This document shows positions 36,316 through 52,420 of a stretch of DNA of 64,000 nucleotides, piece by piece. Position 1 is the first letter of the stretch, and each line of letters begins with the position of its first letter. This DNA comes from Terriglobia bacterium (lineage in GTDB: Bacteria > Acidobacteriota > Terriglobia > Acidiferrales > UBA7541). The DNA is taken from the NCBI GenBank assembly GCA_020073485.1, contig JAIQFB010000009.1, positions 62,001 to 126,000 of the forward strand, in the 5' to 3' direction. A program made the position numbers and the translations under genes. The notes under the pieces are model-generated. The model had not been told where the DNA came from. It was given only the letters and a program-made list of their open reading frames with translations, and made no database searches.

Positions 36316-37695
36316 TTAGCGCAGCAGCGAATTCACTTTGCGCATCTGGCTGGCGAAATCGGCGGGGTTGTAGTGGGAAGGATTTTGCAGCTGCTGGAAC
36401 AAGCCGTTGATCGCGGCGCGGACTTCGGCCGCGTTGATTGTCTTTTCCGTGCGCGAGTAAGCGATGAACAGCGAATCGAGTGCCATGGAGGCTTGCTCGG
36501 CGGCGCGCTCGCCTTCCCCCGAAATTTCATCGGCATCACTGGAAATCTTCTGCAGCAGGCGCAAGGTCATCGCGGCGTCGTAGGGCTGCGTTGCGATTCT
36601 CGCGGCCAGTTGACCCGAGAGCGACGCGGTTGCGGCGGCGGCCGATGCCACGGCGTCGCGGTCGGGATTCAGTTGACTGAGCGATTTGGCGATCTGCGCG
36701 ACCTGCTCTTCCAGGCGCGACGCGCCAGAGTCATCCACTTGATGCGCCAGTTCGCGGAACACGGCGTAGCGCGAGGCGTTCCACGGAGGGTCTCCCGGGC
36801 GGCGCCCGGCGTAGCCGCGCTCCTGCCGCCAGCTTTGTTCCGGCGCCGTTAAATCGTGGTGGCAGGAGAAACACTGCAGTTCGGAATACTCCGGCCAATT
36901 CTTGCCCTTGGCGCGCCAGGCGATCCGCTCCATCGACGCGCGAAGCTGTACCGCCTGCCCAGTGCCCCAATCGCGCACGCCGGACCAGGCATCATTTTCC
37001 GCGGGCACGCCGGGAGCGCTTTCGCGCGGCGTTTTCCAGTGCCGCGGCATCACCGAAGAAAAAGAATCGAGCTCAAAATATAGATCGGGATGACCGGCGG
37101 CAATCATCTCGTGGTCGACGGATTTTTCCTGTGTGCCCAGGTGACACGAGAGGCACTTTTCCGTGCGGCGGATCAGGTTCCGCGTGTCGTACATTCCCGC
37201 TGCCACGGATTGCTCGTGGGTCCAGTTGCGCGTGGTGTGCGGGCCAAGCCACGCGGACGCAGGTCCGTGGCAGCTTTCGCAGCTCACGCCTTCGCTCAGC
37301 TCGAATGTCTTGGCGCGCGCATCGGCCGGGACATCGAGCGCGTGACAGGCGAGGCATTTCGCCGCCTGCTCGGATTTTCCGAGGCCCAGGATGCGGCCCA
37401 TACGTTCGCCGACCGGCCCGGTGAGGGCGTCATACGCTTTCGCATGCTTGTCCTTGATTACCCAGATGCTGTACTCGTTCTGAAAAATGCGACTATCGGC
37501 GCGTGGCTTCACGCTGCCGTGGCAACTGGTGGAACTGCAAGAGCCGGGGCCCGTGTATTTGCCGGTGTCGGCGGGAGGATTGGCGGGAGCGGGAGCGGCG
37601 GCGCGGGCCGAAATAACCGCGGCAAAAAGAATCGCGCCGGCACAATGGACGGCGCATCGCAGTGTCCAGCGCTTGCGATCAGGCCCGATTCTCAT
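36316..37695 (-). CDS. Periplasmic five-heme c-type cytochrome
   Basis: The ATG at 37695 gives a 459-aa product; a TTG further upstream is possible but less likely. A signal peptide (CAVHCAGAILFAAVISARAA) is followed by five heme sites: CSSTSCH (a CX4CH variant), CLACH, CESCH, CLSCH and CFSCH, all in the first 280 residues. Conserved histidines around them (HEQSVAAGMYDTRN, DHEMIAAGHPDLYFE) recall the cytochrome c554-like fold. The C-terminal 180 residues are helical and heme-free. It is divergent from the ferredoxin operon and opens the electron-transfer cluster. The exact partner is inferred from position. Confidence 0.88.
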   Translation of the reverse strand: MRIGPDRKRWTLRCAVHCAGAILFAAVISARAAAPAPANPPADTGKYTGPGSCSSTSCHGSVKPRADSRIFQNEYSIWVIKDKHAKAYDALTGPVGERMGRILGLGKSEQAAKCLACHALDVPADARAKTFELSEGVSCESCHGPASAWLGPHTTRNWTHEQSVAAGMYDTRNLIRRTEKCLSCHLGTQEKSVDHEMIAAGHPDLYFELDSFSSVMPRHWKTPRESAPGVPAENDAWSGVRDWGTGQAVQLRASMERIAWRAKGKNWPEYSELQCFSCHHDLTAPEQSWRQERGYAGRRPGDPPWNASRYAVFRELAHQVDDSGASRLEEQVAQIAKSLSQLNPDRDAVASAAAATASLSGQLAARIATQPYDAAMTLRLLQKISSDADEISGEGERAAEQASMALDSLFIAYSRTEKTINAAEVRAAINGLFQQLQNPSHYNPADFASQMRKVNSLLR

Positions 37696-37933
37696 TCGCT
37701 TGCCCGGATATTGCGCACCCTCAATCAAGTGATCCGCGGGAATTACTCGCGTCAGAAATTCTTATACTTCCCGCTACCCATGAAGTCAACGAATCTACGG
37801 CAAGTTGTTTCCGTCGCTGCGATGGAAAGCGCCGCGTCGGTGAATATAGACTCGCGAACCGGGGTCTGCTATATGACTTTTGGTGCGCCTGGGCGCAGGT
37901 TTACCGGGTCCGCCTTGCCGGGAGAGCGCCGCA

Positions 37934-39490
37934 TTGATTTTTGAGGAATTGAAAAACATCGAACGGCAGCCGGACGGCACCCCCGTTGCGGCCGAGGACC
38001 TCCTCCGGCTTCCGGTGTTCAAGGAAGCGTCGCCGCAATTCCTGAAGAAAAATCCGAATGCAACGATCTGGCGGCATTTCAAGCGCGGAGACATCGTGTG
38101 CCGCGAAGGCGAATTCGGCTCGACCGCGTTTTACATTCTGGAAGGGACGGCCAGCGTGCAACTGGCCAGCCCGATCGCGCACGTGAAGGCGCAGGGCGGG
38201 CCGAGCGGATTTTTCGGGCGGCTGACCAGCAAGCTCACCAGCCGGCTTGCGGCGCGGCAGGAAGATCGCCGGGAAGAGGAAGTGGACCGGCGCTCGATTC
38301 CCATCGACGCCCCGGTGGACCTTGCCTACGACCATCCCGTCGCCGAGCTTGGGCCGGGCGAACTATTCGGTGAAATGACGTGCATGAATTATTATCCGCG
38401 CTCGGCAACGGTGCGCGCGGAAACCGATTGCACCATGCTCGAATTGCTGCGCAACGTTCTCGACGTGCTGCAGAAAAGCAAAACGTTCCGGGCGCAGCTG
38501 GACGAGACCTACCGCAGGCGCGCGCTGGATTCTCATTTGCGCAACGTCCCTATTTTTCGCGGGCTGACGCAGGACTTCATTGACCACTTGCGAGACCGCG
38601 TGGAACTGCTGCGCTTCGCTCCCGGCCAAGTGATCTGCAAGCAAGGAGACGCCTCCGACAGTTTTTATCTGGTGCGGCTGGGCTTCGTGAAGGTCTCCGA
38701 GGGGTACCCGGGTGGAGAACTGGTGCTCGCGTATCTTTCCCGCGGCGATTACTTCGGCGAAATCGGATTGCTCGGAGGCGGAGGACGCACGGCGTCGTGC
38801 ACGGCCCTGGACCACGTGGAGCTAGTGCGCATATCCGCGGAGGATTTCCGCGCCATGGTCCAGCAGTTTCCGGATGTGCGGCTGGGGCTGGAGAAGATCG
38901 CCGCGGAGCGCCAGGAGGCCAATCGCGAGAGGCTGCGAATGGTGCGCAGCGTGCCGCTGGAACGGTTTCTTTCGCAAGGATTGATGGAGGCACAGAGCCT
39001 GCTGGTTCTGGACCTGGAAAAATGCACGCGATGCGACGCGTGCGTGACCGCCTGCGCCGATTCGCACGACGGCGTGACGCGGCTGGTGCGTGAAGGGTTG
39101 CGTTTCGAGAATTTTCTAGTGGCCACGTCCTGCCGGCAGTGTCGCGATCCCTTGTGCATGGTCGGGTGCCCGGTGGGGGCGATCCGGCGGCGCAATTCGC
39201 TCGAGGTGATCATTGAGGACTGGTGCGTGGGCTGCTCGCTGTGCGCCAAGAATTGCCCGTACGGAAATATCAACGTGCATTCGTTCGCCGCGCAAGCCGA
39301 CGATCACGAACATCCGGGACACAAAAAGGCTGTGGTGCAAAAGAAGGCGACGACCTGCGATCTCTGCACCGAGCAGGCGGAGCCGAGTTGCGTCTATGCG
39401 TGCCCGCATGACGCCGCGCATCGCGTCGAGCCGCGCGATTTCTTTGCCGGCACGCTGGGGCAACGAGTGGGCAGATCGGAAAGGCGCTAG
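37934..39490 (+). CDS. Tandem cyclic-nucleotide-binding / four-cluster ferredoxin fusion protein
   Basis: TTG 37934 has GGGAGAG seven bases upstream and gives 518 aa; a GTG at 37883 is the alternative. CNBD 1 (about 45-185) has the phosphate-binding cassette FGEMTCMNYYPRSATV, with an inserted charged loop at 85-135. CNBD 2 (about 207-325) has FGEIGLLGGGGRTASC. Both keep the Glu and Arg that hold the cyclic phosphate. Residues 364-492 carry 16 cysteines in four groups (CTRCDACVTAC, CRQCRDPLCMVGC, CVGCSLCAKNC, CDLCTEQAEPSCVYAC), the HybA/NrfC/DmsB-type ladder of four [4Fe-4S] clusters. There is no signal peptide or helix-turn-helix, so it should be a cytoplasmic electron-transfer subunit with a ligand switch. 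Confidence 0.9.
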   Translation: MIFEELKNIERQPDGTPVAAEDLLRLPVFKEASPQFLKKNPNATIWRHFKRGDIVCREGEFGSTAFYILEGTASVQLASPIAHVKAQGGPSGFFGRLTSKLTSRLAARQEDRREEEVDRRSIPIDAPVDLAYDHPVAELGPGELFGEMTCMNYYPRSATVRAETDCTMLELLRNVLDVLQKSKTFRAQLDETYRRRALDSHLRNVPIFRGLTQDFIDHLRDRVELLRFAPGQVICKQGDASDSFYLVRLGFVKVSEGYPGGELVLAYLSRGDYFGEIGLLGGGGRTASCTALDHVELVRISAEDFRAMVQQFPDVRLGLEKIAAERQEANRERLRMVRSVPLERFLSQGLMEAQSLLVLDLEKCTRCDACVTACADSHDGVTRLVREGLRFENFLVATSCRQCRDPLCMVGCPVGAIRRRNSLEVIIEDWCVGCSLCAKNCPYGNINVHSFAAQADDHEHPGHKKAVVQKKATTCDLCTEQAEPSCVYACPHDAAHRVEPRDFFAGTLGQRVGRSERR

Positions 39491-39519
39491 CGTGGACGCG
39501 CGAGGCGAGAGAATCCAAC

Positions 39520-40419
39520 GTGCGCATTGATCATACGCATAAGGGGTGGCTGATTGCGTCGCTCGCGATGTTCGGCGTGTCGGCGCTGGTTTACGGAGTC
39601 AATCGGGGCGCTGCAACCACGGGCGCATCGATGGGCGGCACGCAGCTGGGTTTAGAGTTTGGGGTGATCGGCTTCGCATTCATGATTTTCGCGGGGTTGC
39701 TGGGCGCGCGGAAGAAAGTTCCGGTGTGGCGCGTGGGCCGCGCGCAAACCTGGATGCGTGGGCATCTGTGGCTGGGCTTGCTGAGCCTGCCAATTCTCCT
39801 GCTTCACTCCGGGTTCCGCTACGGACACGGATTGACGGCCGTGCTGATGACGCTGCTTATCTTTGTGGTCGCGAGCGGAATTTTTGGCGCGGCGCTGCAG
39901 CATTACATGCCGCGAGTGATGACGCGCGAAGTGACCATGGAAACGATTTACGAAGAAATCGGGCACGTGCGCGCGCAACTGCTGGAGGAAGCGGAGGAAT
40001 TGATCGCCAACGCCACGGCGGTTCCGGAAAAAGCCGCGGCCGGCGGGGCCGCGGATTCGACAGCTCCCCCCGCTGCGCCCGTTGCCGCCAGCGTTGCCGC
40101 TCCGGAGGAAGCTGCGCCCCTTCGCAATTTTTTCGACAAGGAAATGAAACCGTTTCTGGAAAAGCCTGGGGCGCGCGGGAGCGCGCTGGGGGATGCGGCG
40201 CAGGCGCGCAGCGCATTCGTGCAATTGCGCACGCTGGTGCCGCCCGCGCTGCACGGCGCGATTGACGACCTGGAAAATATTTGCGAAGAGGAGCGGCAGC
40301 TTACGCTTCAGAGCCGGCTGCACCTGTGGCTGCATGGATGGCTGCTGCTGCATATCCCTGTTTCCATGGCGCTGCTGTTGTTGGGCGCCGTGCATGCGTT
40401 TATGGCATTGCGATACTAG
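39520..40419 (+). CDS. Membrane subunit, probable b-type cytochrome
   Basis: GTG start, 299 aa, 29 bases after the ferredoxin gene. Predicted helices: about 9-29 (WLIASLAMFGVSALVYGVN), 43-62, 77-97 (HLWLGLLSLPILLLHSGFRYGHG), 100-125 (LTAVLMTLLIFVVASGIFGAAL) and a last one at 270-296 (HGWLLLHIPVSMALLLLGAVHAFMAL). A soluble, Ala/Pro-rich region (about 130-265) lies between the last two. Paired membrane histidines suggest b-heme ligation, as in b561-type subunits that exchange electrons with quinones. Its position between a four-cluster ferredoxin and a decaheme cytochrome fits a membrane relay. Heme binding is inferred; I do not recognise a named family. Confidence 0.75.
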   Translation: MRIDHTHKGWLIASLAMFGVSALVYGVNRGAATTGASMGGTQLGLEFGVIGFAFMIFAGLLGARKKVPVWRVGRAQTWMRGHLWLGLLSLPILLLHSGFRYGHGLTAVLMTLLIFVVASGIFGAALQHYMPRVMTREVTMETIYEEIGHVRAQLLEEAEELIANATAVPEKAAAGGAADSTAPPAAPVAASVAAPEEAAPLRNFFDKEMKPFLEKPGARGSALGDAAQARSAFVQLRTLVPPALHGAIDDLENICEEERQLTLQSRLHLWLHGWLLLHIPVSMALLLLGAVHAFMALRY

Positions 40420-40431
40420 GACACAAATCAA

Positions 40432-41796
40432 GTGCCGCGAACACGCACAACCAAAAAACTCGCGCAGCGGATTGACCTGGAATATTTTAAGCGGCCGGGT
40501 CCGCTGCGCCGCTGGGCGTTTCGGCTGTCGGTCGGATTGCCCGCGCTCGCTCTGGTGTGGCTCGCGTGGCACGGCGTACGCGGCGACCGGCGCGTCTATT
40601 CGGCGGGCGCGCTTTCTTCCTCACACGCCGTGCTGACGCGGCAGTGCGCCGCGTGCCACGTCACGCAAGCCGGATTCTTTAGTGAGAAAGTTGCCGACCA
40701 GAAGTGCCTGGCCTGTCACGACGGCGCCATTCATCAGGCGGCGCAGAAGTTTACGCCTTCCTGCGCTTCCTGCCACGCGGATCATCGGGGAACGATTCGC
40801 CTGGCGGCCACGAGCGATGCGGATTGCACGCAGTGCCATGCGAGTCTGACCACGCGCAGGGGCACGACCGCTTTCGCGCGGAATATCGATGGCTTTGAGA
40901 GCAATCATCCGGAATTCGCCGCGCTTCGCGGCGGGAGCGGTGATCCGGGAACCATTCAGCTCAATCACTACCGGCACCTTCAGCCGAATCTGCTTGGGCC
41001 AAATGGCAGCCGTGTGCAGATGGTTTGCACGGATTGCCACCGATCCGCGGCGGATGCGAGTGCGCCGTGGACTTACGGAGACGGCACGGGAGCAACCACC
41101 GAAGAGAAAAATTCAGCGACGCCTGGCGCGAAATCCACAATGCCCATCGGTGTTTCCCCGCGCGCCTATATGGCTCCGGCGACGTATGCGCGCACCTGCG
41201 CCGCGTGCCATTCGCTGCAATTCGACAAGCGTGTTCCCGATGCAGTGCCGCACGACACGCCGGAAAAGATACATCCATTCATCGTGGCCAAGCTGCAGGC
41301 ATACATCGCCGCGCATCCCGCGGACTTGCGCGTGCCGCGCGATCCCAGCCGCGACCTGCCGGAGCAGCCGATTCCGGCGGATTACCGTTTGCTGACGCCG
41401 CAGCAATGGGTGGGTGAACGCACGGTCGAGGCGGAGCAGCTCTTGTGGCGCAAGACCTGCAAGCAGTGCCACACGCTGATTTTTGAGGGAGACGCCGCGC
41501 TGCCGAAAATCGCGCCGTCAAACATCACTGCGCGCTACATGCCGCACGCACGGTTCGATCATTCGAAGCACGGTCTGGTATCTTGCGAAAGCTGCCACGC
41601 CGCCGCGCTCACCAGCCAGCAAAGCTCCGATGTGCTGCTGCCGGGGATCGCGACGTGCCGCTCCTGCCATCACTCCGGCGCCGAAGCCGCCGAATCGCGC
41701 TGCTTCGAGTGCCACACGTATCACGATCCCGCACAGCGCAAGCCCGCGCACAGTAATTTTTCGGTTGCGAATTTGTTTGGCAGTTCTACAAATTGA
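40432..41796 (+). CDS. Membrane-anchored decaheme c-type cytochrome
   Basis: GTG start 12 bases after the previous stop; 454 aa. One uncleaved N-terminal helix (about 26-46, WAFRLSVGLPALALVWLAWHGV) anchors a periplasmic domain with ten CxxCH sites: CAACH, CLACH, CASCH, CTQCH, CTDCH, CAACH, CKQCH, CESCH, CRSCH and CFECH. Many extra histidines nearby (HPEF, HYRHLQ, HARFDHSKH) are likely distal ligands. The layout, with clustered sites at both ends and a longer spacer in the middle, resembles NapC-linked or cytochrome c3/c7-like periplasmic relays. It should take electrons from the membrane subunit encoded before it. Confidence 0.9.
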   Translation: MPRTRTTKKLAQRIDLEYFKRPGPLRRWAFRLSVGLPALALVWLAWHGVRGDRRVYSAGALSSSHAVLTRQCAACHVTQAGFFSEKVADQKCLACHDGAIHQAAQKFTPSCASCHADHRGTIRLAATSDADCTQCHASLTTRRGTTAFARNIDGFESNHPEFAALRGGSGDPGTIQLNHYRHLQPNLLGPNGSRVQMVCTDCHRSAADASAPWTYGDGTGATTEEKNSATPGAKSTMPIGVSPRAYMAPATYARTCAACHSLQFDKRVPDAVPHDTPEKIHPFIVAKLQAYIAAHPADLRVPRDPSRDLPEQPIPADYRLLTPQQWVGERTVEAEQLLWRKTCKQCHTLIFEGDAALPKIAPSNITARYMPHARFDHSKHGLVSCESCHAAALTSQQSSDVLLPGIATCRSCHHSGAEAAESRCFECHTYHDPAQRKPAHSNFSVANLFGSSTN

Positions 41797-41906
41797 TTTA
41801 AGGTCGGGACAAACCTCCAAACCCACGAACATGCAAGTTTCGCAGTGGAGCATCATAACCCCCTGGTCAGCAGAGTCTGTGCGAAGACTGCATCCGCGGT
41901 GCGCCA

Positions 41907-41958
41907 GCGGCTAAAGCCGCGTCGATTTTGCACGCTTCACGGCAGAGCTGAAGCCGTG
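41907..41958. repeat. Two hairpins between convergent cytochrome genes
   Basis: GCGGCTaaAGCCGC (41907-41920) and CACGGC..GCCGTG (about 41938-41958) form two stems in the 277-base gap between the decaheme gene and the convergent decaheme/propeller gene. They are candidate terminators. The rest of the gap (41797-42073) shows nothing else. Confidence 0.6.
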
Positions 41959-42073
41959 CCCCACAAAGATTTCGCGGCTCTCAAGCTGACTTTGAAAACA
42001 CCGGTCACAGCTTGTTCGTATCGCCTTGCCTATGGCTGTAGCCACTCTTCAGAGGCGGGTGGTTTTCCGGCTG

Positions 42074-45000
42074 TTAATGAAGTAGAGAGCCAATGCGGTT
42101 GGCTAACGACTGGATCGGAGATTCTCCTGTAGTCACGGGCCGGGACGGGCCGGGCGGCGCATCCGTGACGGTGTAGAGCTTGCCGTCGCGCAGGTATAAC
42201 TTTTCGGCTTCGGCACGATTGAAGGGGCGGGCGCCGCGGCGGCCGAAGACAGCGAGTTGGTTTCCGCTTTCGTCGACGGCGCGGTCGCGGTCGATTCCGC
42301 GCGAGACCGCGAGTGCAGGGCCGGCCGTGCGGTAGGTCGCGATAAGCTTGGGCGTGGGGCGAGGGCTGAATCCGTAGGATTCGTGCGAATCTTCCGGCGA
42401 AATGACTTGCAGGATGCGCAAGCCGTTGCGGCCGTCGGCGACGTAGGCGAAGACGCTGGCATCGACGGCGCCGATTTTGACGTCGTTCACATCATTTAAT
42501 TGGCCGTCTGCCGTGAATGTTTGATCGATGCGGGGATGCTCGGGTTGCCCAACGTTGATTAGCGCGATTCCATTCTTGCCGGCGGAAACGTAGGCGTAGG
42601 TGCGCGACACGGTGACGTTGCGCGCGTCGCCGACCAGAACGGATGCGCCGGGCACCACGCGGGGATGCGCAAGATCGGTTGCGTCGAGGACTTTCAGTCC
42701 CTGGCGATCGGCCACGAACGCGTAGCGGAATTGCACGGCCACGCCCGTGGGGTCCACGAGATCGGGCGCGCCGATTTCCGCGGTGATGCGGGGCGCGAGC
42801 GGATTATCGAGATCCACAACCACCAGGCCGCGGTCGCACAAGATGTAGGCGTAGGTTCCTGCAATCGTGATCCGGCGCGCGCCGTCTAGAATTCCGCCTG
42901 GGTTAAACGTAGCCGCGCGGCCGATGAAATTATTTTGTGGGTTGCCGTCCAGCAGCGTGCCGACGCCCGGATTTTTCCCTTTCAAATCCGGATTGCCAAC
43001 GACGATCAGCCCTTCGACTTTGTCCGTGACGTAAAGGAACCCGTACATCAGGTGGATTTTTTGTTCCTCATTGGCGGGATCATGGGTACGTAGTGGATCG
43101 ACGCCCAGCGTCGTGGGGGTTGCGACGGCTGTTGCGTACTTCGTCTTGACATAGAGGCGCTGGCCGAGAGGAGAAACCGGCGCGGTGACCATGCGCTCGG
43201 AGAAGCCCTTGTTGTCGATGTTGGCGACGTCGAAGACGCGGAAGCCTGCTGGGCCCATTGCCGCGTAGGCGTACTCACCGCGCAGTTGGATATCCAGAAC
43301 ATTCCCGTCGTGGCGATACGCGGTGGTGAGTTCGCGCTTTTGCTCGACGTGCTTGCGGAAATCGTCGGGGTAGGCCATGCGCTGCAAATCGCTTCCGATG
43401 ATGGCCTCGGGTTCGTCGTGCTCGGCGGTGACCACGGCTTCAAATCCCTTGCTGCCCGCGGCGACGTAAACGTATCGCCCCATGAAGTTGAGAAAATTCG
43501 TGCCCTGCAGCAGGAGCATGGACATCCAGGCGTTGTTGTCGCGGGCGGCGGAGACGTGGCAATCAGTGCACGTCTTGGTCTCTCGCGCGCGTACGGTGTG
43601 CGGCACAAATGTCGAGAACGCCTGGCCGCTGAAGCCTTCGGCGGAAACCGTCTGCTGCGTGTTGTAGAGCCACTCGCGGTTGGCGTTTTGCGAGCTTACG
43701 AGAATCGCGCAAGAAGAACGCGCTGGAGCGATGCGATGTCCGGTGACCGTGCCATCGACGGCAAGCATGTAGCCGTCGTCGCGCAGCACCTGGAAATTGT
43801 AGGAGGTGTAGTTGCGCGTGGTGAGGCCTTCGTTGTGCAGCATGGGGCGCTTCTGGTCGGCGGTCATGGAGAGATGACAGCCGAAACAATTCGGCGTCCA
43901 CGATGTGTGGCATGCGTAGCATGTCATGCTGCTGTTGGGGTGCGCGAGCTGCGATTCGTCCCTGGGCACGTCGCCCCAGGTGACGCCGTTGGTGTGCAAC
44001 GTTTTTGCCAGGCGCGATTTTTCGTTGTAATGCGGATTGCCCGGCGTGATCGAATCGAGGGTCTGGACCACTTCCCATTCGAGGCGCTGGTCCATCATCG
44101 AACGCTGATAGAGTTTGCCGGCGCGCCACTCGAAGCGGCGTTCGAGCCACGGCGTGCGCAGCGCCTCGAGATGCGTGCCGCCAAGCGGAGCGGCTGGACC
44201 TGAGGTGACAAGCGTCGCGCGCCGCGCAATGGTGCCGTGGCAATCGACGCAATCGAGTTCAATCGCGGCGCGCGGCTCGGCATAAAGTTTTCCGCCGCCG
44301 TGGCTGTCCTGCTCAAGATGGCAATCCACGCACTGCATTCCTTTTTCCAGGTGGATGTCGGCAAGGTGCGCGGCCTTGTCAAATTTCTTCGAGTCATCGG
44401 CCGCGACGGTTGCGCCCTTTTCGTCCAGCAACCGACCCTCGCGGTCGCGTGCGTACACGGCGCGGAAGAGCCAGCCGTGGCTGTGGAAGTCGGCAAACTG
44501 CGTGTCCTTCAGATTCTTGTTAAATTCCGGGCTCCCGGTTTCCGTGAGAAATTTCAAGTCGGACCAAAGCCCGCGAGGCGCCGCGCCTTCGGGGTTGCGC
44601 TCGGACACGTGGAATTTTTCTTCTTCGGTCGGATTATGCTGCTGCTTCGGGTACATCGCGTCGCCATCGGATTCGTTGTCCCACCAGGTGTAGCCAAAAT
44701 AGGTGGTCATCATGTTCGTGCCGGGATGTATGTGGCAAACCATGCACTGGCTGGATGGAATCGAGCGCGTGAATATGTGGCGGATCGGATGGCCCGGCTC
44801 GTCGTGCGGGATGGTCGGATCCTTCGATGCGCTGAATCCACGATTTCCGAAGGTCGCGTATTGCGCGGAATGCGCGGCGGAGCGATCGTTGGCGTAAACC
44901 ACGTGGCAGGCGGTGCAGCCGCTGGCGCGGTAATCGCCGGGCTGGTCGTTTGTGCCGGGAAACGAAAGCAGCGGATCGAGCAGGCGCGTTTTTTGCAGGC

Positions 45001-45895
45001 CGAGGAAAACCGGGTCGGTGCGAAGCTGAGTGCCGAAGCCGCGATTGCTGAGTTTGTCGCCGGGCTTGCCGGCATCGTCCACGCGCAAGGGTTCGCCGAC
45101 TTCGCCTTTCGGGCCGCCGCCGCGCTCGAAAACGCGAAGCACGTTGCCCGGCTGGGAAATTTCCCAGCGCTCGAGCGGGGTGATTTCGGGCAGCACGCCC
45201 TTGTTGCGGGTTTCTTCGGCGCTCGGCGGCGGAATGGTGCGAACGGTTTGCGGCGTGCCGTCGTGCGCGTAATTCTCTCCGAAACGCGCATCCTTGCGGG
45301 GATAGGCGCCGTTGTTATAGAGCGCCGCGCCCCAGAGCATTCCTCCCGTGGTCATCATGCTGGTGGAAACGTTGCGGACTTCCGAAGCGTGGCATCCGGC
45401 GCTGCCGCATGTTTCCGAGGCGATGCGCAGATCGCCCGGATTGACGAACCGCACATACTCGGGACTTTCCTTCAACCATTGCGTGTAGAGACGCTCAGGA
45501 TTCGCCGAATGATTCGCGAGTTCGGAATCGCGCGGTTGCGGATGCGCTTTCTGTTTTGTCCGATTGTATTCGGGCGAACCGGCAGCGACGGCTGATGTGA
45601 TGCGGACATCGGCGTTTCCGCCGTGGCAATCCGTGCAGCCGAGGCGCACATTTCCAGTCGCGTGCATGGTGGGTTCATCGGTCGCGGTGTGGCAGGAGAT
45701 GCATCCGGCGCTTTTGCGGTCGGCTTCGGCCTGCGGCTGCGTCATCAGACTGGCGTTCGGGTTTGGTCCTGAATCTTGATCGGCTGCGCGTAACGCCGCA
45801 GAGGGCATCCGCGCGGACAGGACGGCCAGCAGCAAGCTTGCTGCGAGGGTGCTCGCGGAAAATACACGCCACCGGGAATTTGCGTTGTACTTCAA
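42074..45895 (-). CDS. Giant decaheme cytochrome / LVIVD beta-propeller fusion
   Basis: The protein is 1273 aa with a signal peptide ([27 protein letters not shown]). The N-terminal two thirds hold ten heme sites: CISCH, CTDCH, CGSAGCH (CX4CH), CTACH, CMVCH, CVDCH, CVDCH, CYACH, CFGCH and CTDCH. From about residue 785 onward come LVIVD-type propeller repeats ([87 protein letters not shown]). The wide spacing of hemes and the large exported propeller suggest a surface or outer-envelope electron-transfer protein. Its stop-distal end is convergent with the membrane-relay operon; its ATG overlaps the barrel gene stop by four bases. Confidence 0.9.
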
Positions 45896-48222
45896 AATTG
45901 AAATCTCACGTTCGCAAACATCGAGAACTGCGTTTTTCCTGAAAAAATATCGCGAAAGCCCTGCCCGGGCGATAGGGCCGAAGCGCCGCCTGTAATCGAC
46001 ATGTTTTCGGACAGGGGAGGCCGGTACCGGAAGCCGAGACTGTAGTCCACGCCAATCGTGTTGCGGATCGGCGATTCAAACAGCAGCAATGAGATGGGAG
46101 CGGTGCGCTCAAAGCGCAGGTAATTCACATTCGCGAAACTTGTCAGCTTCGGCGTCAGATCGAAATCCGCTCCCGCGTTCAGAACAAAAATTCCGGGATT
46201 GACGAAATTCGCCTGGCCTTCCGTTTTGTCGGTGCGCATGCTGGGCAGCAGGCTATCGGGAGAGGTGAGCGCGACGCCGGTCCCTGTGAGGCGAATTCCT
46301 TCGCGATTCCAGAAACTGAAGATGCCGCCGGCAAATGCGGGATCGTCCACGATGGAATCGAATCCGGTGGCGCGGCCATCGCGGGGATTGGCGTCGCCGG
46401 ATGCGAAGAACGCGGAGACCTTGTAGCGCGCCCAGTCCCTGTCGATGGAAACTTCGGCGGCGGCCATCTGCGCGTTGATGGTCACCGGGCGGCCGACGAT
46501 GGGATTGAGGCTGTCGGTGCCCAGCGCTTCGTAAAATGCGTGATTCACATTGATGGGGCCGAAATGGCCATTTCCCGCCCAGCCGATGTACGCCGCGCGG
46601 ACTTCATGCGGCTGAAAAACGCCGATGGGCGCGGGGCGGGCGAGGAATCCGTTGTCATCGTAGTGAATGCCGGGGTCGTCCTTGTTGTAGTGGATGCTGA
46701 ATTCAGTGGTGTAGCCGGACTTGATGAAATCCTGCATATAGAGATTCGCGACGATCACCTGCTGGTGGCGCAACGCGAAGGAGTTGAGGCCGCTGTTAGT
46801 GTTTTTCTCCAGCAGGTTGAAATAGGCGGCGTTGTACTCCCATCGGTCGGAATGAAGATTTCCGAACAGGCGCACGCCGGGCTGTTCATCGACAAAAATA
46901 AACCCGCGAAAATCGCTGGAAAATTCCTGGATCCCGGCGCGAACCGAGAGGAAATCGTAATTCGGACTCAAATCGCGAATCTTATATTCGACAAACGCCT
47001 CTTGAAGCCCGGCGTGCGCGTCCAGGCGAGTCGTGCCGCTGGCCGCGTCGATATTGACGATGCCAAGTTCCCGCACATTCAAATAATTTACGTTCACCGC
47101 GGGGGTGATGCGGACGCGCCAGTCGACGGGGCGGAAGGAGGCGTCTCCGTGAAAGAGATCGAAAGAAAACCGGAACGTCTGGTCGAGTGCGAACTGCTCT
47201 CCCCTGCCGAAAAAGTCGGGGCTGCCGGGCTGCGCGGAACTGATGTTGCTTGTCGCTGGGACGCGCCGCTCTTCGACGGACGTACCAGCGGTTGCCGTGA
47301 TATTCAGAAACGTTTGCCGGCCGAATATGGGTTCGTCGCCTTTGAGGCGGTTACGATTGAAAGGGTCCCACCAGTGACTCGCGCGCACGTACGGATATTC
47401 GCCGCTGCGCCCGTAGCGATTCCAGTCCGGCATGGCGACGTTCCAGCGGTCCGGCATGGGCAAGAACACTTCCCGGGCGGGGGGAAGAATTTCCGGTGCG
47501 GCGATTCCCTGCCCGTATTCCGCGTCGGGACGCCGAAGCAGTTCCCGATAAGAGGCTGCCGCAGGACCGGATTCGACGGCGGGGGCCGGAGGGCCAAGTT
47601 CGGGCAAGCGCGGAAGGCGCGAAGCAGGTGCGGCAGCGAACGTCGAAGGCGCAAGAATCAGTTCGATGGTCACGACGTCGCCGGCATCGAGGCGCAAATC
47701 ATCGCGCGTCATCTTCTCGAAACCGTCACTCTGCACGAGCAGCAGATACGTGCCCGGATCGAGATCGGTGACGCGAAACACGCCTTCGGCATCGGCGGAA
47801 ATTGTTCGCGTGGCGCCGGTGGCGCGATTGGTAAGGGCGATCAGGGCTCCGGCAACTCCGCGCGAGAAAGCGTCTCGTATGATTCCCTGCAGCGCCGCTG
47901 TTTTTATTTGCGATTGCCGGGGAATTCTTTGCTCCAGCTGGGTCGGAAACGACTGAGGCGGAAAGGCGGATGCAGGAATTGCCGAGCGCAATGCTGAAAT
48001 CCGGGCTGAGGCGTGCGTGTATGAGGATCTTGTCGCCCGGCGCGGATGCGAACGATGCGCCTGAGCGCGAATGCGATGGCGCCGCGTCACGATCGCCGCG
48101 TGCCGCTTTCGCGCAGAAGCGCCGCGGACCGATGCCGCCGCGGGCAGCGCGCCGGCCGTCAACGCGCACACCAGCAAGAGACTCGTGCATAGCCTGCGGA
48201 TGAATTCGGATGCGTTGTGCAT
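45892..48222 (-). CDS. Outer-membrane beta-barrel protein with N-terminal carboxypeptidase regulatory domain
   Basis: ATG 48222 gives 776 aa; a TTG 36 bases upstream is less likely. A signal peptide ([24 protein letters not shown]) is followed by a basic Arg/His/Ser segment (about 30-95) and a CarboxypepD_reg sandwich (about 105-195, [40 protein letters not shown]). A barrel of alternating beta strands follows ([61 protein letters not shown]), ending in a terminal Phe (ANVRFQF). It overlaps the decaheme/propeller gene by four bases, so the two are translationally coupled. It could be the pore of a porin-cytochrome conduit; this is inferred from context. Confidence 0.85.
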
Positions 48223-48421
48223 CCAGTTGATCTCGGTTCCCCCACGCGCGATTGGCAATGCAACAGCCGCGTCTAGCTAACAACAATCTTCCGCATGCGG
48301 CAAGGAGTTTTGGCCCGGCCTGATACGTGTTTGAAACATTTGGCCCCGCTCACAGGACGCGGCAAATTCGCATTTCCTTGCCGCACGAAAAGCCGATATG
48401 CTGGCCTGCCGAGGAATTTTC

Positions 48422-49234: not shown

Positions 49235-49326
49235 GGTGCGCGCATTTCCTGTTTGCGGATCCCGCACAATTTGGTTGCTCGCCTTGAGCGGCTTCCTGCG
49301 ATGTGATAACTAAGCAGGGACCTCTC

Positions 49327-50886
49327 ATGACCACTTTGACTTGCGAATTCACGCGAAGCAAATTTTCTCGAAAGCTATTGTTTGTACTGCCGTTTGTCGG
49401 AGCAATTTTTCTCGCGAGCTGCGGAGGCGTCGTGGGCAGTCTGACTTCCTTCACTCCGCCGCCGGTGACGAGCCTTAGCGCCAGCGACATCACGGCGCTA
49501 GTGCAGGCCGCCGCGCAGGCCGCCGATCCGAACACAATGGTCATCGCCGTTGTGGATCGCGCCGGGCGTGTGCTGGGCGTCTACCGCAAACCTGCGGCTC
49601 CGACTCTCGTGACCGGAAATTTTGGCTCGCAAGTGGACGCAAACGAACTCGCTGTGTCGCTGGCGCGCACCGGCGCGTTTTTCAGTAACGATCAGGCGCC
49701 GCTCTCCTCCCGCACGGTGCGCTTCATCAGCGGGATCCATTTTCCGCCGGGTGTCACCAATGCGCCTAATGCCGCGCTCTACGGAATTGAGAACTCCAAT
49801 CGTGGGTGCACGCTCTCCACGAATTATGCCGCCGGACAAAGTGTGCCGCCCGCGCGATCGATCTCCAGCGCAACTACGGGGCTGGGCATTGCCACGGGCA
49901 AGGCGGACATGGTCGACAGCGATCCGAACGCGGTGAATCCTGGAGGCGTGCCGCTGTTTCGCAACGGCAGCCTGGTGGGCGGAATCGGAGTGGCGGGCGT
50001 GGGGCCCGATGTTGCGGAATACGCCGCGTACTCGGCGGCGACGTCCAATGGATTTGGTCCCACGCCTGCCGCACCCGGCGTTGTGTTCATTGACGGCGTG
50101 GCTCTGCCGTTCGTAAATCAGACGACGCGTCCGGCCGGCGTGGGCACCGGCAGCTTTAGCGCGGCGCTGTTCGTTGCAGGTCCGTCGGCAAGCCCCGGGC
50201 CGCCGCCAGAAGGAACTCTGGTCGCACCCGCAGCGGGGCCCCTCGGGGGGCTTTCCGCTTCGGACGTCACGCAAATCATCAACAACGCGGTCGCGACGGC
50301 GAACACGACGCGCGCGGTGATTCGCCTGCCCATCGGGTCTTCGGCGCGCATGGCCATTGCGGTCGCCGATCTCGACGGGACGATTATCGGGATGTACCGC
50401 ATGGCGGACAGCACGGTGTTCAGCATCGATGTGGCGGCGACCAAAGCGCGCAACATGGTGTACTTCAGCGGCGGCGCGCGGACTGCCGGCGATCTGACGG
50501 GCGTGCCGATCGGAACGGCCGTGACCAACCGCACGATTGGTTATGGTGCGCAGCCTTTTTTTCCGTCGGGGATTGATGGCAGCGCTCCTGGGCCGTTTTT
50601 CAATCTCTACGAACAGGATGTGGCGAATCCGTGCACGCAGGGGTTTCAGGTGGCGGGGCCGAATCAAAGCGGGGTGGTTTTTTTTCCCGGCTCGGTGCCG
50701 CTGTATCGCAATGGGAATCTTGTTGGAGGATTGGGCGTGAGCGGGGACGGGGTCGATCAGGATGATTTCGTGGCGGCTGGGGGCTCGGTGGGGTTTGAAG
50801 CGCCAGCGGCGATTCGCGCGGACCAGGTGGTGGTGCAGGGAGTGCGATTGCCGTATTTGAAATTTCCGACGAATCCGACGAATTGA
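49327..50886 (+). CDS. Lipoprotein with two GlcG/HbpS (heme-degrading-like) domains
   Basis: ATG 49327 has AGGGA upstream; 519 aa. The signal peptide ends in a lipobox LASC (Cys32), so the protein is probably lipid-anchored in the envelope. Two GlcG/HbpS modules follow: about 51-285 (LSASDITALVQAAAQAADPNTMVIAVVDRAGRVLGVYRK .. RNGSLVGGIGVAGVG) and about 310-510 (LSASDVTQIINNAVATANTTRAVIRLPIGSSARMAIAVADLDGTIIGMYRMAD .. RNGNLVGGLGVSGDG). Each has a long Gly/Ala-rich insert before the LVGG strand. Members bind heme or corrinoids, or act as sensors. Tandem fusion on a lipid anchor is unusual. It is monocistronic. Confidence 0.85.
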   Translation: MTTLTCEFTRSKFSRKLLFVLPFVGAIFLASCGGVVGSLTSFTPPPVTSLSASDITALVQAAAQAADPNTMVIAVVDRAGRVLGVYRKPAAPTLVTGNFGSQVDANELAVSLARTGAFFSNDQAPLSSRTVRFISGIHFPPGVTNAPNAALYGIENSNRGCTLSTNYAAGQSVPPARSISSATTGLGIATGKADMVDSDPNAVNPGGVPLFRNGSLVGGIGVAGVGPDVAEYAAYSAATSNGFGPTPAAPGVVFIDGVALPFVNQTTRPAGVGTGSFSAALFVAGPSASPGPPPEGTLVAPAAGPLGGLSASDVTQIINNAVATANTTRAVIRLPIGSSARMAIAVADLDGTIIGMYRMADSTVFSIDVAATKARNMVYFSGGARTAGDLTGVPIGTAVTNRTIGYGAQPFFPSGIDGSAPGPFFNLYEQDVANPCTQGFQVAGPNQSGVVFFPGSVPLYRNGNLVGGLGVSGDGVDQDDFVAAGGSVGFEAPAAIRADQVVVQGVRLPYLKFPTNPTN

Positions 50887-51006
50887 AAGTAGGACAAGCA
50901 CTCTTGCCTGTCCCTGCTGATGTGCCCGCGCCTTAACAACGAAGAACCTCGGTCCATTTCTTCTGTGCTGTGCCGTCGAGGACAGGCAAAAGTGCGTGTC
51001 CTACTT
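50887..51006. terminator. Long palindrome between convergent genes
   Basis: AAGTAGGACAAGCACTCTTG at the left and AAAAGTGCGTGTCCTACTT at the right pair with a few mismatches. Inner TTGCCTGTCC/GGACAGGCAA extends the stem. It fills the whole convergent gap: it begins directly after the lipoprotein stop and overlaps the stop of the transhydrogenase gene. Closely related to 58553-58633. Confidence 0.75.
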
Positions 51007-52420
51007 ACCCCTCGCGAAGCTTGTGGCCTGCCAGGTTGCCCAAGCCGTCGTAGGCAGCGTATTTGTAGAGTTCGGAGAGCGTTGGGAAATTGAAGACCAG
51101 CTCGATGAACGTGTCGATCGTGCCGCCGGCTTCGAGCACGGCCATGCCCAAGTGAATCAATTCCGTGGCGCTTTCGCCCAGGATTTGCACGCCGAGTAGT
51201 TGCTTGTTCTCCGGCCGAAAAATCAGCTTCAGGACTCCGGAAGCGTCGCCGATGATCTGGCCGCGGGCGTTGTTGGAGTATTTCGCGCGACCTACTTCAT
51301 AAGCAATTTTCTTTTCGCGACAGGATTCCTCGGTTTCGCCTACGGCGGAAATTTCCGGGATCGTATAAATTCCCATCGGGAGCTGCGACGCGAGGCGCTG
51401 CTTGTACGGAAAACCGAAGGCGTGGCACATCGCGACGCGGCCCTGCTCCATCGAGGTCGAGGCGAGGGCGGGAAACCCGATGACGTCCCCGGCGGCGTAG
51501 ATGTGGGGCACGGCGGTCTGGAATTCGCCGTTCACGTCGATGTGGCCGCGCGAGTTGATGGCGAGGCCTGCTTTTTCCAGGGCCAGGCCATCCACAGCGC
51601 CGCGGCGTCCTGCGGCAAACAGCGCGGTCTCGGCTTCCAAAATCTTGCCGGAGTTGAGCGTCATTCGGATTCCGGCTGTGGTGCGCTCGGTGGATTTCGG
51701 CCTATCCTGGAAGACGATATTCAACCCGAGATTTGTTAGGTGCGCGCGCAAACGTTCGGAAATTTCAGAGTCCAGAAACGGAAGCAGTCGCTCGCGGCCG
51801 TCGACCAGAGTGACGGCCACGCCCATGGCGGTGAAGATCGACGCGTACTCGCAGCCGATCACACCGCCGCCCACGACGATCATGCTCTTCGGGATGCGGT
51901 CCATCGTGAGGATGGAATCGGAATCGAAGACGGTTTTGTCATCGAACGGAATTTCCGTCGGGCGGTGCGGTTTGGAACCGGTCGCGATCAAGATCACTTC
52001 CCCGCGCAGGATACGAGCCGTGCCCCGGGAGTCGATTGCGGTGATTGTATGCGCATCTTCAAATTGGGCGATGCCGTGGATGAGTTCGATCTTGTGGGCC
52101 GCGAGGTTCGTTGCGATTTTCAAGCGTTCCGCGGAAACCACCGCGTCCTTGCGGTGCATGAAGCCCTGCACGGTCAGCCCTTCGCGCAAGGAATAATCGA
52201 TGCCGTAGAGGCCGCGCTGCCGCAGCCCGGAAAAATAGAGCGCGGATTCGCGCAGCGTCTTGCTCGGCACCGTGCCGGTATTGACGCCCGCGCCGCCCAA
52301 TTCCTCGCGGCGCTCGATCAGCGCGACGCGCTTGCCGAAGTAGGCGGCTTGCGCCGCGCCTTTTTCTCCGGCTGGGCCGGAACCGATCACTATGAGGTCG
52401 AAGGATTCCACGGCGAACAC
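51005..52420 (-). CDS. sthA: Soluble pyridine nucleotide transhydrogenase (Si-specific)
   Basis: This 471-aa flavoprotein belongs to the disulfide-reductase superfamily. The FAD motif is DLIVIGSGPAGEKGAAQAAYFGKRVALIE. In place of the redox-active cysteines it has GGAGVNTGTVPSKTLRE, the hallmark of SthA/UdhA. The NAD(P) motif is MIVVGGGVIGCEYASIFTAMGVAVTLVDG and the second FAD motif IYAAGDVIGFP. The dimerisation domain contains HLGMAVLEAGGTIDTFIELVFNFPTLSELYKYAAYDGL. It exchanges reducing equivalents between NADPH and NAD+. The GTG at 52420 is immediately preceded by AGAGGA; an in-frame GTG at 52411 has better spacing and may be the real start. Confidence 0.95.
   Translation of the reverse strand: MFAVESFDLIVIGSGPAGEKGAAQAAYFGKRVALIERREELGGAGVNTGTVPSKTLRESALYFSGLRQRGLYGIDYSLREGLTVQGFMHRKDAVVSAERLKIATNLAAHKIELIHGIAQFEDAHTITAIDSRGTARILRGEVILIATGSKPHRPTEIPFDDKTVFDSDSILTMDRIPKSMIVVGGGVIGCEYASIFTAMGVAVTLVDGRERLLPFLDSEISERLRAHLTNLGLNIVFQDRPKSTERTTAGIRMTLNSGKILEAETALFAAGRRGAVDGLALEKAGLAINSRGHIDVNGEFQTAVPHIYAAGDVIGFPALASTSMEQGRVAMCHAFGFPYKQRLASQLPMGIYTIPEISAVGETEESCREKKIAYEVGRAKYSNNARGQIIGDASGVLKLIFRPENKQLLGVQILGESATELIHLGMAVLEAGGTIDTFIELVFNFPTLSELYKYAAYDGLGNLAGHKLREG

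Follow-up and report, generated by a model that had tools for sequence, protein, structure and literature searches.

The window analysed here, a 64,000-nucleotide stretch of contig JAIQFB010000009.1 (positions 62,001 to 126,000) from a Terriglobia bacterium whose genome measures 5.05 Mb and is 97% complete, carries a set of genes, labelled A to F and H, for multiheme c-type cytochromes, an inner-membrane protein, an iron–sulfur protein with cyclic-nucleotide-binding domains (CNBDs), an outer-membrane β-barrel, and a heme-binding lipoprotein. Six of them, A to F, had been put forward in an earlier note on this DNA as an undescribed conduit that carries electrons across the cell envelope, and they are considered here together with their relatives in other genomes. 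The features are as follows.

36316..37728, minus strand: A, a periplasmic pentaheme cytochrome resembling cytochrome c554, with a signal peptide (Pfam PF13435, E-value 3e-11; four CxxCH and one CX4CH)
37880..39490, plus strand: B, a cytoplasmic protein with two CNBDs and four [4Fe–4S] clusters, in its bare form (Pfam cNMP_binding, E-value 8e-40; Fer4 families)
39520..40419, plus strand: C, an inner-membrane protein of PCC3/PCC4 type, probably a diheme b-type protein (SGIFG; two WX3HX13H)
40432..41796, plus strand: D, a decaheme cytochrome with one N-terminal membrane segment as anchor (ten CxxCH; Pfam Cytochrome_C7, 8e-13)
42074..45895, minus strand: E, a secreted decaheme cytochrome fused to a C-terminal LVIVD β-propeller (nine CxxCH and one CX4CH; LVIVD, E-value 2e-22)
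45892..48258, minus strand: F, an outer-membrane β-barrel with an N-terminal CarboxypepD_reg domain (Pfam PF13620; structure model)
49303..50886, plus strand: H, a lipoprotein (LASC lipobox) with two HbpS-like heme-binding domains (Pfam PF03928, E-value 1e-19)
51005..52420, minus strand: I, a Si-specific NAD(P)+ transhydrogenase, not a core part (NCBIfam NF003585, 591 bits against a cut-off of 465)

All six open reading frames (ORFs) of the earlier note are found, in the order and on the strands that it described (minus, three plus, two minus), and its LVIVD propeller in E is recovered by Pfam; the start of F is uncertain by a few codons (48258 here, 48222 there). A is divergent from B, gaps of 29 nt and 12 nt separate B from C and C from D, and the stop codon of F lies over the start codon of E in a shared TTGA, in keeping with the overlap and short gaps that had been described. 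Judged by this arrangement, three transcription units appear to be present, namely A, B-C-D, and F-E. Counting by motif gives 25 c-heme sites (five in A, ten in D, and ten in E), where about 25 had been estimated, and these are not chance occurrences, because shuffled sequences of the same composition yield 0.005–0.05 motifs per protein against 23 real CxxCH motifs. An unrelated HAD hydrolase gene is located between F and H, and H itself lies just beyond the range covered by the earlier note. The intergenic region between D and E (window 41797–42073) contains the palindromic GCGGCTAAAGCCGC and another element that resembles it; these could be a dispersed repeat or form a bidirectional terminator.

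Linkage and distribution of the gene set

A scan for E yields 55 loci, nearly all of them in Acidobacteriota. In 44 of these, F immediately precedes E on the same strand, and in the remaining 11, E is partial or at a contig end. The possibility raised earlier, of a barrel that has no cytochrome neighbours elsewhere, therefore does not materialise, since F adjoins E wherever E is complete and the upstream DNA is readable, and in two families the barrel and a tetraheme domain form one protein. Among the 26 loci with about 10 kb on both sides, 20 also carry B, C, or D, and two more carry A. Every readable neighbourhood of C is flanked by B, and nearly always also by D; B and C are a single protein in some clades, and three loci (L111, L112, and L123) have the order B-C-D-H-F-E on a single strand. 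A is linked to B or E in relatives, and in Sphingobium too. H lies near F or E in 37 of the 55 loci and within the operon in L111, L112, L123, and Sphingobium (L155), and by this neighbourhood it is a seventh member of the set. The transhydrogenase gene I is a neighbour in 22 of the 55 loci; it follows closely behind A in several, and only a few bases after A in L005.

When 347 evenly drawn Acidobacteriota genomes are searched with profiles of C and E, C is found in 43 and E in 37; both occur in 36 genomes, C alone in 7, E alone in 1, and neither in 303 (Fisher p 1e-40, in a test that ignores shared descent). The 36 genomes with both genes span 18 families, and in 20 of them, from 12 families, C and E are no more than 20 kb apart. 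The earlier note had left joint action as an inference and had named scattered, unlinked homologues as the finding that would speak against it. Such scattering is not borne out: a search for conserved synteny finds the set linked or co-occurring in 18 families, and also on Sphingobium plasmids. Joint action is well supported by the co-occurrence, the linkage, and the single operons, and the same genomic evidence strongly supports the view that the genes form one system.

The alternative is that two independent neighbours are involved, in which case B-C-D would work on its own as an inner-membrane redox module, and F-E-H would form another module at the outer membrane. This would accommodate the seven genomes in which C occurs without E and the many in which the halves lie on separate contigs; however, C is present in 36 of the 37 genomes that carry E, both halves are united in the single operons of L111, L112, and L123, and they are jointly present on plasmids of another phylum, leaving independence very improbable. 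The genomes with C and no E are G020, G022, G157, G203, G267, G292, and G339; in G157 (L124), 8-heme and 5-heme cytochromes precede B-C-D and perhaps represent a different terminal module. An expanded version occurs in L152, L153, and L154, where F-E and further heme-rich ORFs surround a fused B-C, one ORF carrying FHA, Fe–S, and Pyr_redox domains.

Outside Acidobacteriota, the megaplasmid pMSHV of Sphingobium herbicidovorans carries the complete set, with A-H-F-E on one strand and D-C-B on the other, and its E is 47% identical to E of the window over 94% of the length. A survey of 72,556 plasmid records finds C and D in 12 each, and F and full-length E in 13 each; these are the same Sphingobium plasmids, plus one Sphingopyxis plasmid that has A-H-F-E only. 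The plasmid copies are all annotated as hypothetical or generic proteins. Flanking the Sphingobium cluster are a gene for a ShlB/FhaC-type transporter and an ORF of very large size, resembling two-partner secretion (L155:458-8611 and L157:1009-8570), and one flanking copy is annotated as a heme:hemopexin-binding protein. A genome named Deltaproteobacteria (G352, L041) contains E, F, A, and NuoEF-B-C-D. C is found in 1 of 148 sampled genomes of its phylum, G352 itself, and in none of the other 147; the system reached G352 by horizontal transfer, or else the genome is mis-named or mis-binned. A contig labelled Acidimicrobiia (L044) has an E fragment 68% identical to acidobacterial E, in a genome without C, and is probably mis-binned.

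Cytoplasmic and inner-membrane components

The alignment of B homologues reveals 16 invariant cysteines, matching four [4Fe–4S] clusters, and the match of B to the Pfam family for cyclic nucleotide monophosphate (cNMP) binding reaches 135 bits. Both phosphate-binding cassettes, FGEMTCMNYYPRSATV and FGEIGLLGGGGRTASC, are intact in the window, with the GE...R residues kept, and B of the window's clade is judged from these residues to have real cyclic-nucleotide domains, in agreement with the CNBD–ferredoxin assignment made earlier. The cassettes are also kept in most Terriglobia and in Pyr_redox forms of B. A CHASE2-class III cyclase gene is located between H and F in seven Terriglobia loci (L009, L013, L015, L017, L036, L048, and L051), which may reflect shared descent, and a gene for a SpdA/CpdA-like cyclic-nucleotide phosphodiesterase directly follows D on Sphingobium plasmids (L155:18942-19790 and L157:19049-19897, both on the minus strand). 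By their position, these cyclase and phosphodiesterase genes are independent hints of a cyclic-nucleotide link; the window's genome encodes two class III cyclases elsewhere. A FecR-domain gene stands beside the CHASE2-cyclase gene in L036, and a similar ORF is found in L013.

In many relatives, B is joined to an NAD(P)H oxidoreductase module. In many Terriglobia, a NuoE–NuoF fusion gene precedes B, which then has an extra N-terminal NuoG/HydA1/HoxU-like domain, and in L111, L112, L123, and Sphingobium, B begins with a thioredoxin-reductase-type FAD/NAD(P)H oxidoreductase domain (assigned with Pfam in L111 and L155). In Chloracidobacterium-like genomes, the D-type cytochrome instead carries a Pyr_redox-type NAD(P)H domain, along with an FHA domain. 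The presence of two unrelated NAD(P)H modules on the same core suggests electron exchange between this core and NAD(P)H. The N-terminal part of long B and the NuoEF protein next to it are good matches to the HydA1/HoxU/NuoG and NuoEF diaphorases, but here these parts are joined to CNBDs and a ferredoxin, and no hydrogenase, formate dehydrogenase, or complex I parts accompany them. In the tree of B, the branch of the window's genus nests among the long forms, and the alternative in which the long forms are one clade is only marginally disfavoured (approximately unbiased test, p 0.053); a loss of the NAD(P)H module in this genus is likely. Elsewhere, the window's genome encodes two NuoEF homologues that resemble complex I.

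C has five hydrophobic segments, the third of which is weakly hydrophobic and was placed by eye. SGIFG (position 119) resides in the fourth segment, and the two WX3HX13H motifs, W78-H82-H96 and W274-H278-H292, reside in the third and fifth segments, respectively. His82, His96, His278, and His292 are invariant, and both motifs are present in 19 of 19 C homologues, Sphingobium included. According to the main text of PMC5566968 (He et al. 2017), SGXXG together with two WX3HX13H motifs is the signature of the inner-membrane proteins (IMPs) in the predicted porin–cytochrome complexes PCC3 and PCC4; the paper adds that ferric reductase/NADPH oxidase holds its two b hemes with the same HX13H pairs. 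C resembles the FRE/NOX transmembrane ferric-reductase domain in its two HX13H pairs for two b hemes and in having the NAD(P)H side in the cytoplasm, but differs in that the electrons would go to a multiheme cytochrome and that C has no sequence family match. The Sphingobium C matches cytochrome b561 (PF01292, E-value 1.4e-4) below the curated cut-off, and a structure search with the model of C (predicted local distance difference test, pLDDT, 71) retrieves unrelated helical bundles only. Among the proteins listed in a pangenome study of Gallionellaceae is a 10-heme "Forkhead-associated protein" (PMC10734462), which may be a homologue of D in iron oxidisers.

PCC3 and PCC4, which share the IMP motifs of C, were found in Fe(II) oxidisers (PMC5566968), and a chain built from the present genes could likewise run inward, taking up extracellular electrons, for example from Fe(II), and delivering them to NAD+ or quinones, as proposed for those two conduits. 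However, many carriers look like soil heterotrophs by their record names, and the transfer of electrons from Fe(II) to NAD+ needs an energy input, for which the cluster contains no coupling subunit; inward flow is considered distinctly unlikely.

A putative outer-membrane unit and known conduits

All ten heme motifs of E, CX4CH included, are invariant across 16 homologues. E carries a signal peptide and lacks a lipobox, which H has. The model of F has about 16–18 strands at a mean pLDDT of 56, and in structure comparisons it comes closest to OprD-family porins and AlgE (Z about 20 and root-mean-square deviation about 4 over 320–340 residues). In two families (L152 and L154), F has an N-terminal tetraheme domain ahead of the barrel; this fusion physically couples hemes to the barrel, which speaks for electron transfer at the outer membrane but does not prove that electrons pass through the barrel.

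Because the low-confidence model of the barrel resembles OprD/AlgE-type porins, a rival reading remains serious in which E would be the terminal reductase of a soluble substrate in the periplasm, such as an oxyanion, and F would be its import channel, like OprD or ExtI, with no exit of electrons. E weakly matches ExtM, from the Geobacter selenite/tellurite cluster, and octaheme nitrite reductase, and the reduction of selenite and tellurite is influenced by ExtI, a porin whose gene lies in a cluster rich in cytochromes (PMC5877670). The tetraheme domain fused to the F barrel argues against this reading, as do the low confidence of the F model and the shortness of the ExtM match, which is partial and reaches 68 bits against a cut-off of 800 for this NCBIfam equivalog, and a periplasmic reductase with its own import porin is regarded as somewhat unlikely. 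Matches to TIGR03508 (MtrA/DmsE decaheme) do not reach the cut-off of 192, at 20.4 bits for A and 13.6 bits for E. In-frame TGA codons in some E homologues raised the idea of selenocysteine, as in ExtKL, which was dropped because the matches lie at the 3' end of E and the single case followed in detail, a TAA in G270, is a terminal stop.

Porin–cytochrome conduits are known chiefly from metal-respiring Proteobacteria and are usually fed by quinol. In MtrCAB, the inner-membrane partner is a quinol dehydrogenase, and MtrB forms a 26-strand sheath for MtrA. The present set shares decaheme cytochromes and an outer-membrane barrel with MtrCAB, MtoAB, and PioAB, but the low-confidence model of F (pLDDT 56) has about 16–18 strands against the 26 of MtrB. 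The Geobacter cluster extHIJKLMNOPQS also combines a porin and several multiheme cytochromes with a b-type cytochrome and an Fe–S protein, and the similarity of E to ExtM is short and weak; in contrast to the present set, no CNBD or propeller is reported for it, its redox input is Rieske/cytochrome b, and its lipoprotein is a rhodanese rather than HbpS. The set is not assigned to the Ext cluster, because the ExtM scores fall far below the cut-off.

PCC4, itself a prediction, comprises a porin, three periplasmic multiheme cytochromes (MHCs), and an IMP, with an Fe–S (PF13247) gene before the IMP gene in subgroup II (PMC5566968, main text). Compared through this published description and its motifs, the present set resembles PCC3 and PCC4 in its porin, its several MHCs, and the SGXXG and two WX3HX13H motifs of the IMP, and resembles subgroup II of PCC4 in the Fe–S gene, as B directly precedes C; PF13247 scores below its cut-off in B of the window (23.0 vs 26.2) and above it in L111, L113, and L155. 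A barrel and three MHCs are present, with heme counts of 5, 10, and 10 against the 4, 5, and 10 of PCC4, and the largest MHC has 10 sites, short of the low-complexity MHCs of PCC3, with medians of about 34 and 21 hemes. The LVIVD propeller, the CNBDs, the HbpS lipoprotein, and the NAD(P)H modules are not found in the main text of PMC5566968, and the main host group here is Acidobacteriota. A literature search returned no paper combining cyclic-nucleotide-binding, multiheme, and porin, none combining LVIVD and multiheme cytochrome, and none that mentions CNBDs, LVIVD propellers, or HbpS in porin–cytochrome clusters. Of the proposal that the conduit is undescribed, the general kind thus does not stand, because C bears the PCC3/PCC4 IMP signature and PCC4, as its main text describes it, has a porin, MHCs, and an Fe–S protein; the CNBDs and the LVIVD propeller, unreported there, do stand, and HbpS, likewise unreported there, comes in addition. 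The cluster is best called an NAD(P)H-linked, probably cyclic-nucleotide-regulated variant of the porin–cytochrome kind.

A candidate NAD(P)H-linked electron route

The best explanation of the set, to which we assign a probability of about 0.58, is a single NAD(P)H-linked, cNMP-regulated, trans-envelope electron chain. B would collect electrons on its four [4Fe–4S] clusters at the cytoplasmic face, fed in many relatives by an attached NAD(P)H oxidoreductase of the NuoEF/NuoG type or the thioredoxin-reductase-like type, and the two CNBDs would set whether B is active. C would move the electrons across the inner membrane via two b hemes, as in the membrane domains of ferric reductase/NADPH oxidase, and D would take them on the periplasmic side. 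A and E would relay them to an outer-membrane unit in which the decaheme E with its propeller would join the porin-like F and the lipoprotein H with its heme-binding domains. We infer that the electrons cross the envelope through physical contacts among these proteins, under the control of a cNMP switch, and exit from the cell; the likeliest direction would be outward, from NAD(P)H to an external or outer-periplasmic acceptor.

Several observations weigh against this chain. The surface position of E is unproven, because E lacks a lipobox, and the model of F (pLDDT 56) is closer to 18-strand substrate porins than to a wide MtrB-type sheath. The cassette residues are lost in one or both CNBDs in several clades, so that cNMP sensing is not universal. 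The window's genus has the bare form of B only, with no NAD(P)H module, in all four members found to carry the system, and the two halves of the set lie on different contigs in 15 of the 36 genomes that have both.

More tentatively, the cluster might be a counterpart of the NADPH oxidase/ferric reductase within a bacterial porin–cytochrome conduit, in which electrons from NAD(P)H would cross both membranes, bypassing the quinone pool, and cAMP or cGMP would open the route by binding to the Fe–S polypeptide. Some soil Acidobacteriota, and Sphingobium associated with plants or soil, appear to have an electron route that is tied by protein fusion to NAD(P)H and to a second messenger. The cultured Sphingobium with the full set makes the model testable, and, if the model is true, regulated and plasmid-borne extracellular electron transfer would exist in organisms that are mostly treated as heterotrophs.

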